Assembly (NCBI RefSeq): GCF_001436645.1
Contig: NZ_AYZI01000007.1
Location: 1-64,000, forward strand
DNA from: Fructilactobacillus florum DSM 22689 = JCM 16035
GTDB taxonomy: Bacteria; Bacillota; Bacilli; Lactobacillales; Lactobacillaceae
Reading direction: 5' to 3'
Length of the DNA stretch: 64,000 nucleotides
Under the pieces are notes generated by a model, which worked only from the letters and a program-made list of their open reading frames with translations, searched no databases and was not told the DNA's origin. This document shows, piece after piece, positions 28,920-35,986 of this stretch. The number at the start of each line of letters is the position of its first letter. The stretch's first letter is position 1. The position numbers were made by a program, and so were the translations under genes.

Positions 28920-30236
28920 ATGGCTGATAAAACCATGCAACCACATATTGGACCATTCACCGCCCTGGCAACCGTCATGGGAACTGTCATCGGAGGCGGT
29001 GTCTTCTTTAAAACAGCAGCCGTCGTGGCGGCCACCAATTCAGCTGGCCTCACAATCCTAGCTTGGGTGCTCGGTGGTCTACTAACTATTTGCGGTGGTT
29101 TAACTGTTTCCGAACTGAGCGCCGCTTTTCCAGAAACCGGTGGCTCCATTAAATATTTAGAACACACCTACGGCAAAATAACGGGATTTTTGCTCGGCTG
29201 GTCGGAAATGTTAATTTATTTTCCTGCCAACATTGCCGCCCTCGCCATTATTTTTGCAACTCAGGTTATTAACCTTTTTCATTTAAACCCCGGATTGCTA
29301 GTCCCAATTGCCTTGCTCACAGCGGCTAGTATTACCATTATCAATCTTTTTGGAGCGCGGGCAGGTGGCATGGTACAATCCCTGACTTTTCTAGGAAAAC
29401 TCATCCCCCTTGCCATTATCATTATCGGGGGGCTCTGGATGCCCGGTCACGTGGAAACAAGCCTCTTCCCGCTAAACCCTGCTGGTCATACCAACTTCAT
29501 TACCGCCTTTTCTGGTGGATTAATTGCCACCATGTTTGCTTATGAAGGCTGGATTAACGTGGGAACCATTGCTGGTGAAATTAAAAATCCTCAAAAGAAT
29601 CTCCCTAGAGTCATTGGTCTAGGATTAGCTCTTATTATGGTAATTTATTTACTAGTAAACTGGGTTTTCTTGAAACAACTGCCACTAAATCAAATAGCAG
29701 GCAATGAAAACACTGCCTTTGAAGCTGCCCAACGGCTCTTTGGTGAATTTGGTGGCAAACTTGTTACCATTGGTATCTTGGTTTCAGTGTATGGAACCAT
29801 CAATGGCTATACCTTAACTGGTCCGCGAGTTACCTACGCCATGGCTAAAAATGATGATTTACCCGGTAGTCACTGGCTCAAAAAACTATCGAAAAAGTAT
29901 GCTGCCCCCTACTGGGCCACAATTTTAACTTTCAGCATTGCAACGATTATGGTTTTTTTAGGTTCGTTTGATGTTTTGACTGATATGCTTGTATTTGTCA
30001 TGTGGATTTTTAATTGTCTGCTCTTTTTTGCGGTGCTTCTGTTACGCAAACGAGAGCCAGGGTTGCCCCGTCCTTACCGTGTACCATGGTTCCCGCTCAT
30101 TCCAATTATCGCACTAGTTGGAGGACTCTTTATTCTTATTACCACCATCATCAATCAGCCCCTCTTGGCCTTGACGGGGATTGGAGTAACCTTTGCTGGA
30201 ATTCCATTCTTTTACATCCATAAATTGCGCCATTGA
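28920..30236 (+). CDS. APC-superfamily amino-acid permease
   Basis: A 438-residue transporter with 12 predicted membrane helices of the LAT/SteT group of the amino acid-polyamine-organocation superfamily. Helix 1 has the substrate-binding break VMGTVIGGGVFF, helix 3 the stretch AAFPETGGSIKYLEHTYG, and helix 6 FAYEGWINVGTIAGEIKNPQ. The substrate is probably neutral amino acids, exchanged or symported, but is not certain. GGAGG lies seven bases before the ATG. The gene is monocistronic. Confidence 0.87.
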   Translation: MADKTMQPHIGPFTALATVMGTVIGGGVFFKTAAVVAATNSAGLTILAWVLGGLLTICGGLTVSELSAAFPETGGSIKYLEHTYGKITGFLLGWSEMLIYFPANIAALAIIFATQVINLFHLNPGLLVPIALLTAASITIINLFGARAGGMVQSLTFLGKLIPLAIIIIGGLWMPGHVETSLFPLNPAGHTNFITAFSGGLIATMFAYEGWINVGTIAGEIKNPQKNLPRVIGLGLALIMVIYLLVNWVFLKQLPLNQIAGNENTAFEAAQRLFGEFGGKLVTIGILVSVYGTINGYTLTGPRVTYAMAKNDDLPGSHWLKKLSKKYAAPYWATILTFSIATIMVFLGSFDVLTDMLVFVMWIFNCLLFFAVLLLRKREPGLPRPYRVPWFPLIPIIALVGGLFILITTIINQPLLALTGIGVTFAGIPFFYIHKLRH

Positions 30237-32873: not shown

Positions 32874-34252
32874 TTTGTTGTCCTCCGTTTCTTTTGAAAA
32901 TGTTCCTTCATGGCATAACCGGTGTAGCAAACGATCACAAAAGGAACGGTACATTCTAAAGCAATCCGCTGCTGCGGATCAAACCAGATCAGCAAACAGG
33001 ATAGCAAGCACAGACCACAAGCTAACAGCGGAACTACTGGGTATCCAGGCGTTGGACACTGTAAATCAGTATCCCGATGTCCCGTTTGTCGCCATTGTTT
33101 GCGAAACTGAAACTCTGATAACGCAATCGCCATCCACACAAAGACTACCGCCAATCCTGAAATCGAAACCAGCACTAAGTAGACGGAACTTGCAGCATAG
33201 ATTGCCGACAAGAGGGCCAGGATGCCACCACCCATGCTGGCGACAAGCGCATAAATTGGAATCTGCTTTTTCGTCGTCCGCTGAAAAATGGGAGCAACCA
33301 TTCCCTCGTTAGCTAATGACCATAACATCCTAGTTGCGGCATAAAGCCCCGAGTTTGCTGCCGAAATAATCGCCGTCAGCACTACAAAATTCATCAAATC
33401 CCCTGCCAAGGGGATCCCCAATCCGGAGAAAATCGTTACAAATGGACTTTGCGTTACCCCCGCCTGTTGGTAGGGCAACAAAGCACTCATAACCACCATG
33501 CTACCCACAAAAAAGGTAATGAGTCGCCATAAGGTAGCATGAATTGCCTTGGGAATCGTCTTTGCCGGATCTTTGGTTTCACCAGCGGTTACTCCAATTA
33601 ATTCAGTGCCGGAAAAAGCAAAATTAACGGTGAGCATCGTGGTAAAGACTCCCGAAAAGCCATTGGGGAACCACCCAGATCGGTAAAAATTACGTAAGCC
33701 GATGAATTGGCGTGTCCCATGATAGGGAAGCAATCCCACCATTGCACCTACTCCTAACACAATAAAGCTCACGATGGCGACCACCTTGATGCCGGCAAAC
33801 CACCCCTCAGTTGTCGCAAACCATTTAACCGAAACTGCATTTAAACTAAAAATCAAAATAATTAGTAGAGCACTCCACATCCAAACGGGCGTTTGTGGAA
33901 ACCAATGGCGCATGATTAATCCAGCGGCGGTGAATTCCGATCCCAATGCAATCGTCCAGGTCAACCAGTATAAAATCGCCACGACAAACCCCGCACTTTT
34001 TCCTAAGTAGCGTTGCGCGTAAACATGAAACGAACCGGTTTCTGGAAAAGCTACTGCTAACTCTCCCAAACACAGCATTACTAGATAAACAATCAACGCC
34101 CCTACTAAATATGCCAGGACAGTTCCTAATGGTCCTGCCTCATGAATCGTGTACCCGGAACTCAGAAACAAGCCGGTTCCAATCACTCCGCCTAATGAAA
34201 TCATGAGAACCTGCCGGGCTGAGATGGCACGGGCTAAATGTGCTTTAGTCAT
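32870..34252 (-). CDS. mmuP: S-methylmethionine/amino-acid permease (MmuP type)
   Basis: A 460-residue, 12-helix permease of the amino-acid transporter group, with [20 protein letters not shown] in helix 1 and [20 protein letters not shown] in helix 3. Coupling with mmuM through an ATGA overlap, and a methionine-type T-box upstream, identify S-methylmethionine as the probable substrate. GGAG lies seven bases before the ATG at 34252; ten further in-frame codons upstream fall in the terminator T tract region and are not translated. Confidence 0.88.
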
Positions 34253-34266
34253 TCGCTTTCTCCTCG

Positions 34267-34535
34267 AAAAAATAAAAAACACCCGCCCTATAAAAAGGAC
34301 GAGTGTACTCGTGATACCACCTTAATTAATTCATTTCTCACAAAATGAACCTCCGCCAGTTACAACCATAACTGCGTCTTGATAACGGTGACGAATCCGG
34401 TGCTAGCTAACGATTCACTAACAAAGTTATTCAGAACTGTCCATCTTCTAAACGTTCCCCTACTTCCTTTTCACCAGCCAGGAGTTCTCTGAAAGGGTTG
34501 CGCCTATACTCAACAATTCTTCTTGGAAATAATTT
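34267..34535 (-). promoter_or_regulatory. T-box riboswitch, methionine specifier
   Basis: Read on the minus strand, the leader of mmuPM has a stem I region with GAAGAUGGACAG, placing AUG (34442-34444) in the specifier position. It has the conserved T-box AAGGUGGUAUCACGAGUA (34307-34324 area), whose UGGU pairs with the A-CCA end of uncharged tRNA, and a terminator GGACGAGTGT/ACACCCGCCC with T tract (34267-34306). Uncharged tRNA-Met would stabilise the antiterminator and turn on the operon. The specifier is read from motif context, not from a fold calculation. Confidence 0.85.
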
Positions 34536-34540
34536 TTTTA

Positions 34541-34569
34541 ATTTTATGCCGGACAATTAAGGTTGTCAA
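34541..34569 (-). promoter_or_regulatory. mmuPM promoter
   Basis: Minus strand: perfect TTGACA (34564-34569), 17 bases, TAAAAT (34541-34546). Transcription would start near 34535, at the beginning of the T-box leader. Confidence 0.75.
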
Positions 34570-34619
34570 GGTCTTTTTGGTTGAAATTACGAATTAATAA
34601 TTTTACTTACAAAAAACAA

Positions 34620-34648
34620 TTGACGCCAGCGCCACAATCCTGTTTAAT
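34620..34648 (+). promoter_or_regulatory. Promoter of the leader-peptide/PfoR-like unit
   Basis: TTGACG (34620-34625), 17 bases, TTTAAT (34643-34648). It points away from the mmuPM promoter 50 bases to the left. Confidence 0.6.
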
Positions 34649-34679
34649 ATCCATAATCTAATAGAAAGGATCGTTAACG

Positions 34680-34751
34680 ATGTCATCACTAATGCCTAGT
34701 CAAACACACCTATATTTAGCCTTTATTTGGTACAAACCTGTATCTAATTAA
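34680..34751 (+). CDS. Leader peptide (23 aa) of an attenuator
   Basis: A 23-codon frame with AGAAAGGA (34663-34670) nine bases before the ATG; the main gene downstream has the same ribosome binding sequence. The peptide has a polar start and the aromatic-rich C-terminal stretch LYLAFIWYKPVSN. The ATG lies in a perfect palindrome ATCGTTAACGAT (34670-34681). AGCCTT inside the frame can pair with AAGGCT that overlaps the stop codon (34750-34755), so translation would change the fold. Identity with a known leader was not recognised. Confidence 0.6.
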   Translation: MSSLMPSQTHLYLAFIWYKPVSN

Positions 34752-34769
34752 GGCTTTTAGTGCTTAAAT

Positions 34770-34884
34770 CCTGGTTAGATCGGTCTTTATCGCTAACCAG
34801 GTCTGTTCATTAGTTATTGTCGTTACTTTCCTAATAACTATTAGAGTCTGGTTAGCTCCCCCTGCTAACCAGGCTTTTTATTTT
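34770..34884 (+). promoter_or_regulatory. Four-segment attenuator/terminator
   Basis: Four mutually complementary segments follow the leader peptide: 1, CCTGGTTAG (34770-34778); 2, CTAACCAGG (34793-34801); 3, CTGGTTAGC (34848-34856); 4, GCTAACCAG (34864-34872), then a T tract (34875-34884). Pairing 1:2 plus 3:4 makes a terminator; pairing 2:3, enclosing the extra hairpin TAGTTATT/AATAACTA (34811-34840), would be the antiterminator. This is the classical attenuator arrangement. The signal is not known. Confidence 0.75.
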
Positions 34885-34899
34885 AGAAAGGACTTGCTC

Positions 34900-35943
34900 A
34901 TGAAAACACATCTCCGACAACATTTATTGAACATTTTGAATGGAATGGCGATTGGGATTATCGTCACCCTCATTCCGGGTGCAATCTTAAATTCCATCAT
35001 AAAGCCACTGCTACCCACTTTTCCGGCGCTTACAGTCGTTCTGGGGTTCACAGCCATGGCAGCCATGATTCTACCCGCAGCCAGTGCTACCTGTGTTGGC
35101 ATGCTGTCGCACTTTACCCCAATGCAATCGGCAGCGCTAGCATTAGCTGCTACCGTCGGCGCTGGAAATGCAAAATTCAGTAATGGAAATCTATTAATCA
35201 ATGGCAGCGGGAACGTATTAAACATTGGGATTACAATTGGGATTGCCTATTGCTTAATTTTACTAATTGGAACTCGACTCAAAGACTTAAGCATCCTGTT
35301 GCTACCGACGATTGTCCTGTTAGTCGGTGGTGGAATCGGTCGACTAACCCTTGGCCCGGTCGACTTCTTTACTAAAGAAATCGGGATTGGCATTGTCCAA
35401 CTAACTAGCTTACAACCGGTACTGATGGGTTGTCTGATCGCAATTTGTTTTGCCCTCATCATTGTTTCACCGATTAGTTCTGTAGGCATCGCCACCGCAA
35501 TCGGCATTAGTGGTATTGCTGCTGGAGCTGCTAACCTAGGTATCGTAGCAACTGCTTTTACCTTGGCAGTTGCTGGATCCCAAGTTAACTCAATGGGAAC
35601 GATCATTTCCCACATTATCGGAACTCCCAAGATTCAGATGGCAAATATCCTTGCCAAACCTAAACTAGTCGTACCAGCAGTGATTAACGCCGGTATCTTA
35701 GGTGGATTAGGAGCTATTTTTGACGTCAAAGGAACCCCTGTGAGTGCTGGATTTGGCTTGGCCGGTTTAGTGGGCCCGTTAGCTGACCTAGATGCCCATC
35801 CTCATATCTCTCTGACTCACACAATTGTCATCGTGTCCCTATTTCTAATTGTTCCTCTACTACTGGCATTTATTAGTCGCTATCTTTTTATTAATAAACT
35901 ACATTTCCATGAACCTGAAGATCTCAAACTTGATTATCATTAG
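34900..35943 (+). CDS. PfoR/PTS_EIIC_2-family membrane protein
   Basis: A 347-residue, very hydrophobic membrane protein with about ten segments, like the PF13303/COG3641 family (named after the Clostridium PfoR locus and distantly related to PTS IIC domains). Repeated Gly/Ala-rich helices such as GFTAMAAMILPAASATCVGM, GNLLINGSGNVLNIGI and ISPISSVGIATAIGISGIAA are typical. No IIA or IIB partner is nearby and its transport role is unproven. The ATG at 34900 has AGAAAGGA seven bases before it. It is expressed behind the leader-peptide attenuator and ends at its own terminator. Confidence 0.75.
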   Translation: MKTHLRQHLLNILNGMAIGIIVTLIPGAILNSIIKPLLPTFPALTVVLGFTAMAAMILPAASATCVGMLSHFTPMQSAALALAATVGAGNAKFSNGNLLINGSGNVLNIGITIGIAYCLILLIGTRLKDLSILLLPTIVLLVGGGIGRLTLGPVDFFTKEIGIGIVQLTSLQPVLMGCLIAICFALIIVSPISSVGIATAIGISGIAAGAANLGIVATAFTLAVAGSQVNSMGTIISHIIGTPKIQMANILAKPKLVVPAVINAGILGGLGAIFDVKGTPVSAGFGLAGLVGPLADLDAHPHISLTHTIVIVSLFLIVPLLLAFISRYLFINKLHFHEPEDLKLDYH

Positions 35944-35946
35944 CTA

Positions 35947-35986
35947 ATAAAAAAGGGACGATCATAAATGATCGCCCTTTTTTATT
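35947..35986. terminator. Terminator after the PfoR-like gene
   Basis: AAAAAAGGG-A-CGATCAT pairs with ATGATCG-CCCTTTTTT, one bulged base, followed by ATTA. Confidence 0.88.

Follow-up and report, generated by a model that had tools for sequence, protein, structure and literature searches.

In the his operon attenuator of Salmonella and E. coli, a starved ribosome covers segment A of the leader RNA and lets segments B:C and D:E pair, a ribosome at the leader stop codon leaves C:D and E:F, and an untranslated leader results in termination. The pheA, pheST and trp attenuators of Proteobacteria combine an intrinsic terminator with a leader peptide in which codons for Phe, Tyr or Trp abound. Here, we describe an element upstream of the gene for a PF13303 (PTS_EIIC_2 / PfoR-like) membrane protein in Fructilactobacillus florum DSM 22689 = JCM 16035 (NZ_AYZI01000007.1, positions 1 to 64,000 of the forward strand; this whole stretch of 64,000 nucleotides is referred to as the window). 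The nearest precedents that we found outside Proteobacteria are candidate His-leader attenuators in Firmicutes, which otherwise use T-boxes or repressors (PMC9413887), and the uORFC-13-1 motif of Acholeplasma aroF, in which a short open reading frame (ORF) with Phe codon(s) lies 5' of a terminator in the aromatic pathway (PMC8632094).

We consider it very likely that the element is a classical six-segment, ribosome-mediated transcription attenuator that responds to the charging of aromatic (Phe/Tyr) tRNA and controls uptake or salvage by the PF13303 transporter. A reading made from the sequence alone (the original prediction) had described four of the segments, numbered 1 to 4. The parts of the locus are as follows (P, predicted pairing probability):

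34620..34648, plus strand: sigma-70-type promoter, TTGACG-17 nt-TTTAAT (sequence; similar boxes align in 7/7 orthologues of the genus)
34662..34670, plus strand: Shine-Dalgarno of the leader peptide, TAGAAAGGA (sequence)
34680..34751, plus strand: leader peptide MSSLMPSQTHLYLAFIWYKPVSN, 23 codons, ATG at 34680, stop at 34749-34751 (homologous leaders in six relatives)
34713..34733, plus strand: putative sensor codons Y12-L-A-F15-I-W17-Y18 (ribosome scan by folding; B captures C at 0.94-0.95 with the A-site on Y12 to W17)
34718..34734, plus strand: segment A, spanning aromatic codons, partner B (A:B P 0.77-0.96 without ribosome; covariation)
34739..34755, plus strand: segment B, last codons and stop, partner A or C (B:C P 0.81-0.87 with stalled ribosome; covariation)
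34770..34780, plus strand: segment C, segment 1 of the original prediction (C:D P 0.98 without ribosome; 100% of cells paired)
34792..34801, plus strand: segment D, formerly segment 2, partner C or E (folding, repeat arms, alignment)
34811..34840, plus strand: additional hairpin lying between D and E, drawing the two together (P 0.96)
34843..34856, plus strand: segment E, formerly segment 3, 5' arm of the terminator or antiterminator with D (D:E P 0.99 with stalled ribosome)
34864..34877, plus strand: segment F, formerly segment 4, 3' arm of the intrinsic terminator (terminator scan; E:F covariation)
34874..34882, plus strand: T tract of the terminator (sequence)
34900..35943, plus strand: PF13303 membrane protein, the regulated gene (Pfam 1.4e-88; EIIC-like predicted fold)
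35956..35977, no strand assigned: bidirectional terminator 3' of the PF13303 gene (terminator scan)

The repeat arms, CTGGTTAG at 34771-34778 and 34848-34855 and CTAACCAG at 34793-34800 and 34865-34872, are perfectly complementary. The terminator stem (34843-34877) comprises 14 pairs followed by TTATTTT, and the Shine-Dalgarno of the main gene (34884-34892) precedes its ATG at 34900. Folding of the attenuator region gave z = -5.3 relative to shuffled sequences, none of 200 being as good. The promoter was skipped by a consensus promoter scan, the filter of which requires the second base of the -10 box to be A. The promoter, the 23-codon frame with its own Shine-Dalgarno and the T tract that had been claimed earlier are all in place, as are the four mutually complementary segments, now C to F of six, and the mutually exclusive pairings 1:2 plus 3:4 (terminator) versus 2:3 (antiterminator) are supported by folding and by conservation in relatives. 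A gap of 19 bases between the leader stop codon and segment 1 had been regarded as a weak point. The gap is real, but the objection falls because segment B overlaps the last leader codons and the stop and pairs with segment C; stalling would act by way of A and B, within the leader, which refines the four-segment scheme into one of six.

When aromatic aminoacyl-tRNA is plentiful, the ribosome would reach the leader stop and cover A and B; C:D and E:F would then form, and transcription would stop at about 34880. With poorly charged Phe or Tyr (or Trp) tRNA, the ribosome would stall on the aromatic codons and cover A only, whereupon B:C and then D:E would form, no terminator would arise and the PF13303 gene would be transcribed. 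An untranslated leader would form A:B, C:D and E:F and terminate. What the analysis shows is the sequence anatomy, the conservation, the covariation and the predicted folding logic; the tRNA signal, the folding order during transcription and the substrate of the transporter are inferred. The sensed event had previously been left between a particular amino acid, ribosome inhibition and other signals, with Pro among the candidate residues; the amino acid signal is the best reading, with too little charging of tRNA for aromatic residues (Phe/Tyr, often Trp) as the sensed event, in preference to Pro or ribosome inhibition.

We moved a model ribosome along the leader one codon at a time, folded the RNA at each position and, in transcripts truncated 3' of C, scored how far B captures C. 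In the window, A:B and C:D form without a ribosome, and with the ribosome on W17 the probabilities were 0.87 for B:C and 0.99 for D:E. Capture of C reached 0.93-0.95 with the A-site at L11-W17, 0.78 at Y18 and 0.16-0.29 from K19 to the stop. Averaged over 13 species, it was 0.77 at the aromatic cluster, 0.30 at the stop and 0.57 without a ribosome, and the cluster exceeded the stop in 12 of the 13. The model predicts that the antiterminator step occurs only around the aromatic codons and yields a his-type layout of six segments, with A:B, C:D and E:F opposed to B:C and D:E. The exclusive antiterminator is predicted to depend on ribosome position, in the window at the B:C step and not at the equilibrium D:E helix. 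Sequestering of E at equilibrium did not discriminate in the window by itself, and tests following the order of transcription were added. Across 35 leaders, E sequestering at an aromatic codon minus that at the stop averaged 0.161, compared with 0.027 +/- 0.029 (maximum 0.076 in 40) for dinucleotide-shuffled spacers.

The PF13303 gene is present in 7 of 10 genomes of the genus, and these seven were compared. All seven orthologues have a leader with its own Shine-Dalgarno, an equal promoter layout and an equal order of segments; the hairpin between D and E occupies the same place with a different sequence in most members. The leaders read MNSQMINQTSFYFYFAWYDNVSK in F. sanfranciscensis, MDNHMINQNSFYFYFAWYDSVSK in F. 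lindneri, MKNKMTQLNSYYNFTWFTNVSK in Lactobacillus sp. S2-2 and FYFYFTWNPRRSK in the three other relatives, and six of the seven contain FYFYF.W or YYNFTW. Sensor codons are clustered in a short translated leader, more weakly in the window. Compensatory changes were found in A:B (96% of cells paired, two pairs with double changes), in B:C (two double changes, G-C/A-U and U-A/G-C) and in E:F (double changes at three pairs, every cell paired), and sliding the partners against each other abolished pairing in each helix. The comparison with related genomes that had been suggested as a check thus shows that leader frame, terminator and alternative antiterminator are kept, with compensatory changes.

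Both strands of the PF13303 loci, 2.23 Mb in total, were scanned blindly for aromatic-cluster leaders (ATG, Shine-Dalgarno of at least 5, 12-40 amino acids, at least 5 F/Y/W in 8 residues), which returned 51 matches. Some of these represent one locus fetched twice. Forty-seven lie directly 5' of PF13303 or of an aminotransferase heading its operon (at L010, L040 and L051, the ORF caller began that gene at a start further upstream), and at the 4 others (L127, L131, L132, L150) the stretch ends just inside the PF13303 gene. No aromatic-cluster leader was found elsewhere in the scanned loci; since these were selected for holding PF13303, the signal is confined to one place within them, which is not a statement of absence from the remaining genomes. 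At least ten genera carry the leader, among them Fructilactobacillus, Lactobacillus, Bombilactobacillus, Lentilactobacillus, Pediococcus, Lacticaseibacillus, Paucilactobacillus, Agrilactobacillus, Ligilactobacillus and Liquorilactobacillus; in Jeotgalibaca it appeared at relaxed settings only. Outside Lactobacillaceae, the sampled PF13303 loci of Clostridium, Kurthia, Streptococcus, Psychrobacillus, Niallia and Exiguobacterium had neither a stringent leader nor a T-box.

Among 42 distinct leader clusters, Phe occurs in 42, Tyr in 40 and Trp in 31, which makes Phe and Tyr the common signal. An intrinsic terminator lies 3' of every leader tested, except for one imperfect stem, and the sequestering of E still tracks the aromatic codons although stem sequences vary among genera. 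The pattern Y[FY]FW[FY][FY] is found in 108 of 401 genomes of the family, in many cases beside PF13303 loci, a count that may include chance matches in coding sequence. The Ligilactobacillus leaders (YYYFYFF; L131/L073, L106) lie ~180-220 bases 5' of the gene, and this longer region may hold extra structure.

Several observations weigh against the attenuator as we read it. No leader in the set clusters its aromatic residues more weakly than that of the window (4 of 8, below the 5-of-8 threshold of the scan). The D:E helix of the window is favored at equilibrium even when the ribosome sits on the stop codon, so that the off state would depend on C:D forming first during transcription, a modeling limit that remained, and some orthologues lack an equilibrium switch in the E test. 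C:D is paired in 100% of cells, yet its changes are one-sided only. The covariation derives from 5-6 sequences, several shuffle controls are no more than suggestive, and for B:C and E:F the stretches were excised manually ahead of alignment, which biases the result in favor of structure.

PF13303 occurs as a single copy in the 1.35 Mb genome at E <= 0.001, and in the window its transcription unit is probably monocistronic. Its predicted structure (predicted local distance difference test, pLDDT, 87) came closest to PTS EIIC proteins, with PtsG, ChbC and MalT as the top Foldseek matches (template modeling score 0.47-0.55, E 0.003-0.02), and a PDB sequence search returned no relative. No IIA/IIB partner is fused or adjacent in the window or present in the L035 and L042 operons, the loci covered. 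In other genera, an aminotransferase can head the PF13303 operon, with a 2-hydroxyacid dehydrogenase as further partner; the partners resemble aromatic/aspartate aminotransferases (1DJU among the matches) and D-lactate or D-2-hydroxyisocaproate dehydrogenases (4XKJ, 1DXY). An aminotransferase gene lies directly 3' of PF13303 in 5 of the 7 genus genomes, its product ~60% identical to the Pediococcus operon enzyme, and is missing from this position in the window. Two key families of aromatic biosynthesis, prephenate dehydratase (PF00800) and DAHP synthase (PF00793), are missing from each of the 10 genus genomes, in which control families were detected. The genus therefore appears, from its gene content, to be auxotrophic for aromatic amino acids, which would explain why the regulated gene is not biosynthetic and why control of uptake or salvage makes sense. 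As the gene would be on in shortage, the economical reading is import, most likely of aromatic amino acids themselves or else of keto/hydroxy-acid precursors, which the partner aminotransferase would turn into aromatic amino acids.

A homologous copy of the attenuator stands 5' of a BasC-like Ala-Ser-Cys exchanger in seven Fructilactobacillus genomes (L207-L213). Its leader has SSSNST in place of FYFYF[AT], with the subsequent Trp kept in most (SSSNSTW), and the predicted B:C step again peaks on or near the Ser codons. The permease gene of L207 (G009) is broken up into two frames. The BasC-like permease of the window (28920-30236, 64% identity) has a plain upstream region without a serine leader, and a search 5' of BasC homologues in other genera returned no Ser leaders. 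At L151, a T-box precedes the PF13303 orthologue (56.9 bits, below the gathering score); its specifier by alignment is UAC (Tyr). Read in the same way, a minus-strand T-box in the window gave AUG, as expected for S-methylmethionine genes.

That T-box (34292-34536, minus strand; RF00230, 85.5 bits, slightly below the gathering score) is of the Met type and precedes genes for an S-methylmethionine permease and a homocysteine S-methyltransferase (mmuP/mmuM-like, 34282-31956). In Agrilactobacillus (L070, 6068-6284), a Tyr-type T-box lies directly 3' of PF13303 and 5' of a putative NhaC-type transporter named by eye. For the element itself, a T-box was rejected, with no plus-strand match at 34200-34950, as was the His_leader family (RF00514), which gave no Rfam match while the leader lacks a His run; at gathering and relaxed thresholds, no Rfam family fits the plus-strand element.

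The nascent leader might instead sense an antibiotic or small molecule by arresting the ribosome, as in erm, msrD or tnaC, upstream of an export or resistance protein. The W and P of the leader loosely resemble TnaC, and attenuators with arrest-type leader peptides are known from Gram-positive bacteria (PMC10314930). What is conserved across unrelated leaders is a composition, any run of F/Y/W, and no arrest motif; Pro lies outside the cluster, the paralogue exchanges the aromatic codons for Ser before a BasC-like transporter, a Tyr T-box stands in for the leader in one genome, and the gene shares its operon with an aminotransferase and a 2-hydroxyacid dehydrogenase in other genera. We regard arrest as very improbable, and we rejected a macrolide-type arrest leader on leader composition. 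The two identical inverted repeats could also be DNA operators for a repressor, the hairpins being two ordinary tandem terminators. Cross-pairing of A:B, B:C and D:E with compensatory changes, the conserved leader frame and codon-exact switching across many genera with unrelated stem sequences leave hardly any room for this, and we rejected a repeat-only reading on covariation and leader conservation.

Attenuation could also be real and the gene encode a regulator or a protein that carries aromatic end products, phenyllactate for instance, out of the cell, and the partners do resemble enzymes of the kind forming phenyllactate. Against this, the switch is predicted to turn the gene on when aromatic amino acids run short, and in a genus that appears auxotrophic export would then be wasteful; we find this unlikely, though it deserves some weight. 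Returning to import under aromatic attenuation, we lean, with modest confidence, towards a regulon across Lactobacillaceae (aminotransferase, D-2-hydroxyacid dehydrogenase and PF13303) that marks the orphan PF13303 proteins of this clade as importers of aromatic amino acids or aromatic precursors, a Fructilactobacillus copy having been re-tuned from aromatic to serine codons before the BasC-like exchanger.

Classical leader-peptide attenuation is thereby indicated as widespread in Lactobacillaceae, although lactic acid bacteria are thought to rely mainly on T-boxes. A substrate class is predicted for a large and probably misnamed transporter family (PTS EIIC / PfoR), and PF13303 is linked to the kinds of aminotransferase and hydroxyacid dehydrogenase behind phenyllactate and flavor chemistry in food fermentations. 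The serine-codon paralogue offers a natural test of whether leader codon identity sets the signal; if true, the swap would be a natural reprogramming of an attenuator.

In the open-access literature searched, we found no account of the element, its regulon, its Lactobacillaceae host group or the swap of sensor codons, and Rfam does not hold the element. As a mechanism, classical his-like attenuation is already known. With the his operon attenuator (RF00514) the element shares six segments A-F, but it differs in aromatic sensor codons, a transporter target and a Lactobacillaceae host, with no sequence relation. The pheA, pheST and trp leaders govern biosynthesis or a tRNA synthetase, whereas uptake or salvage in probable auxotrophs would be controlled here. 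The His-leader candidates of Firmicutes (PMC9413887) are likewise classical attenuators and differ in belonging to histidine biosynthesis operons and other families, and uORFC-13-1 (PMC8632094) differs in its biosynthetic gene, structure and lineage. The tyrosine T-box (RF00230), which precedes the PF13303 orthologue in L151, has an equal regulatory output but binds tRNA directly and has no leader peptide.
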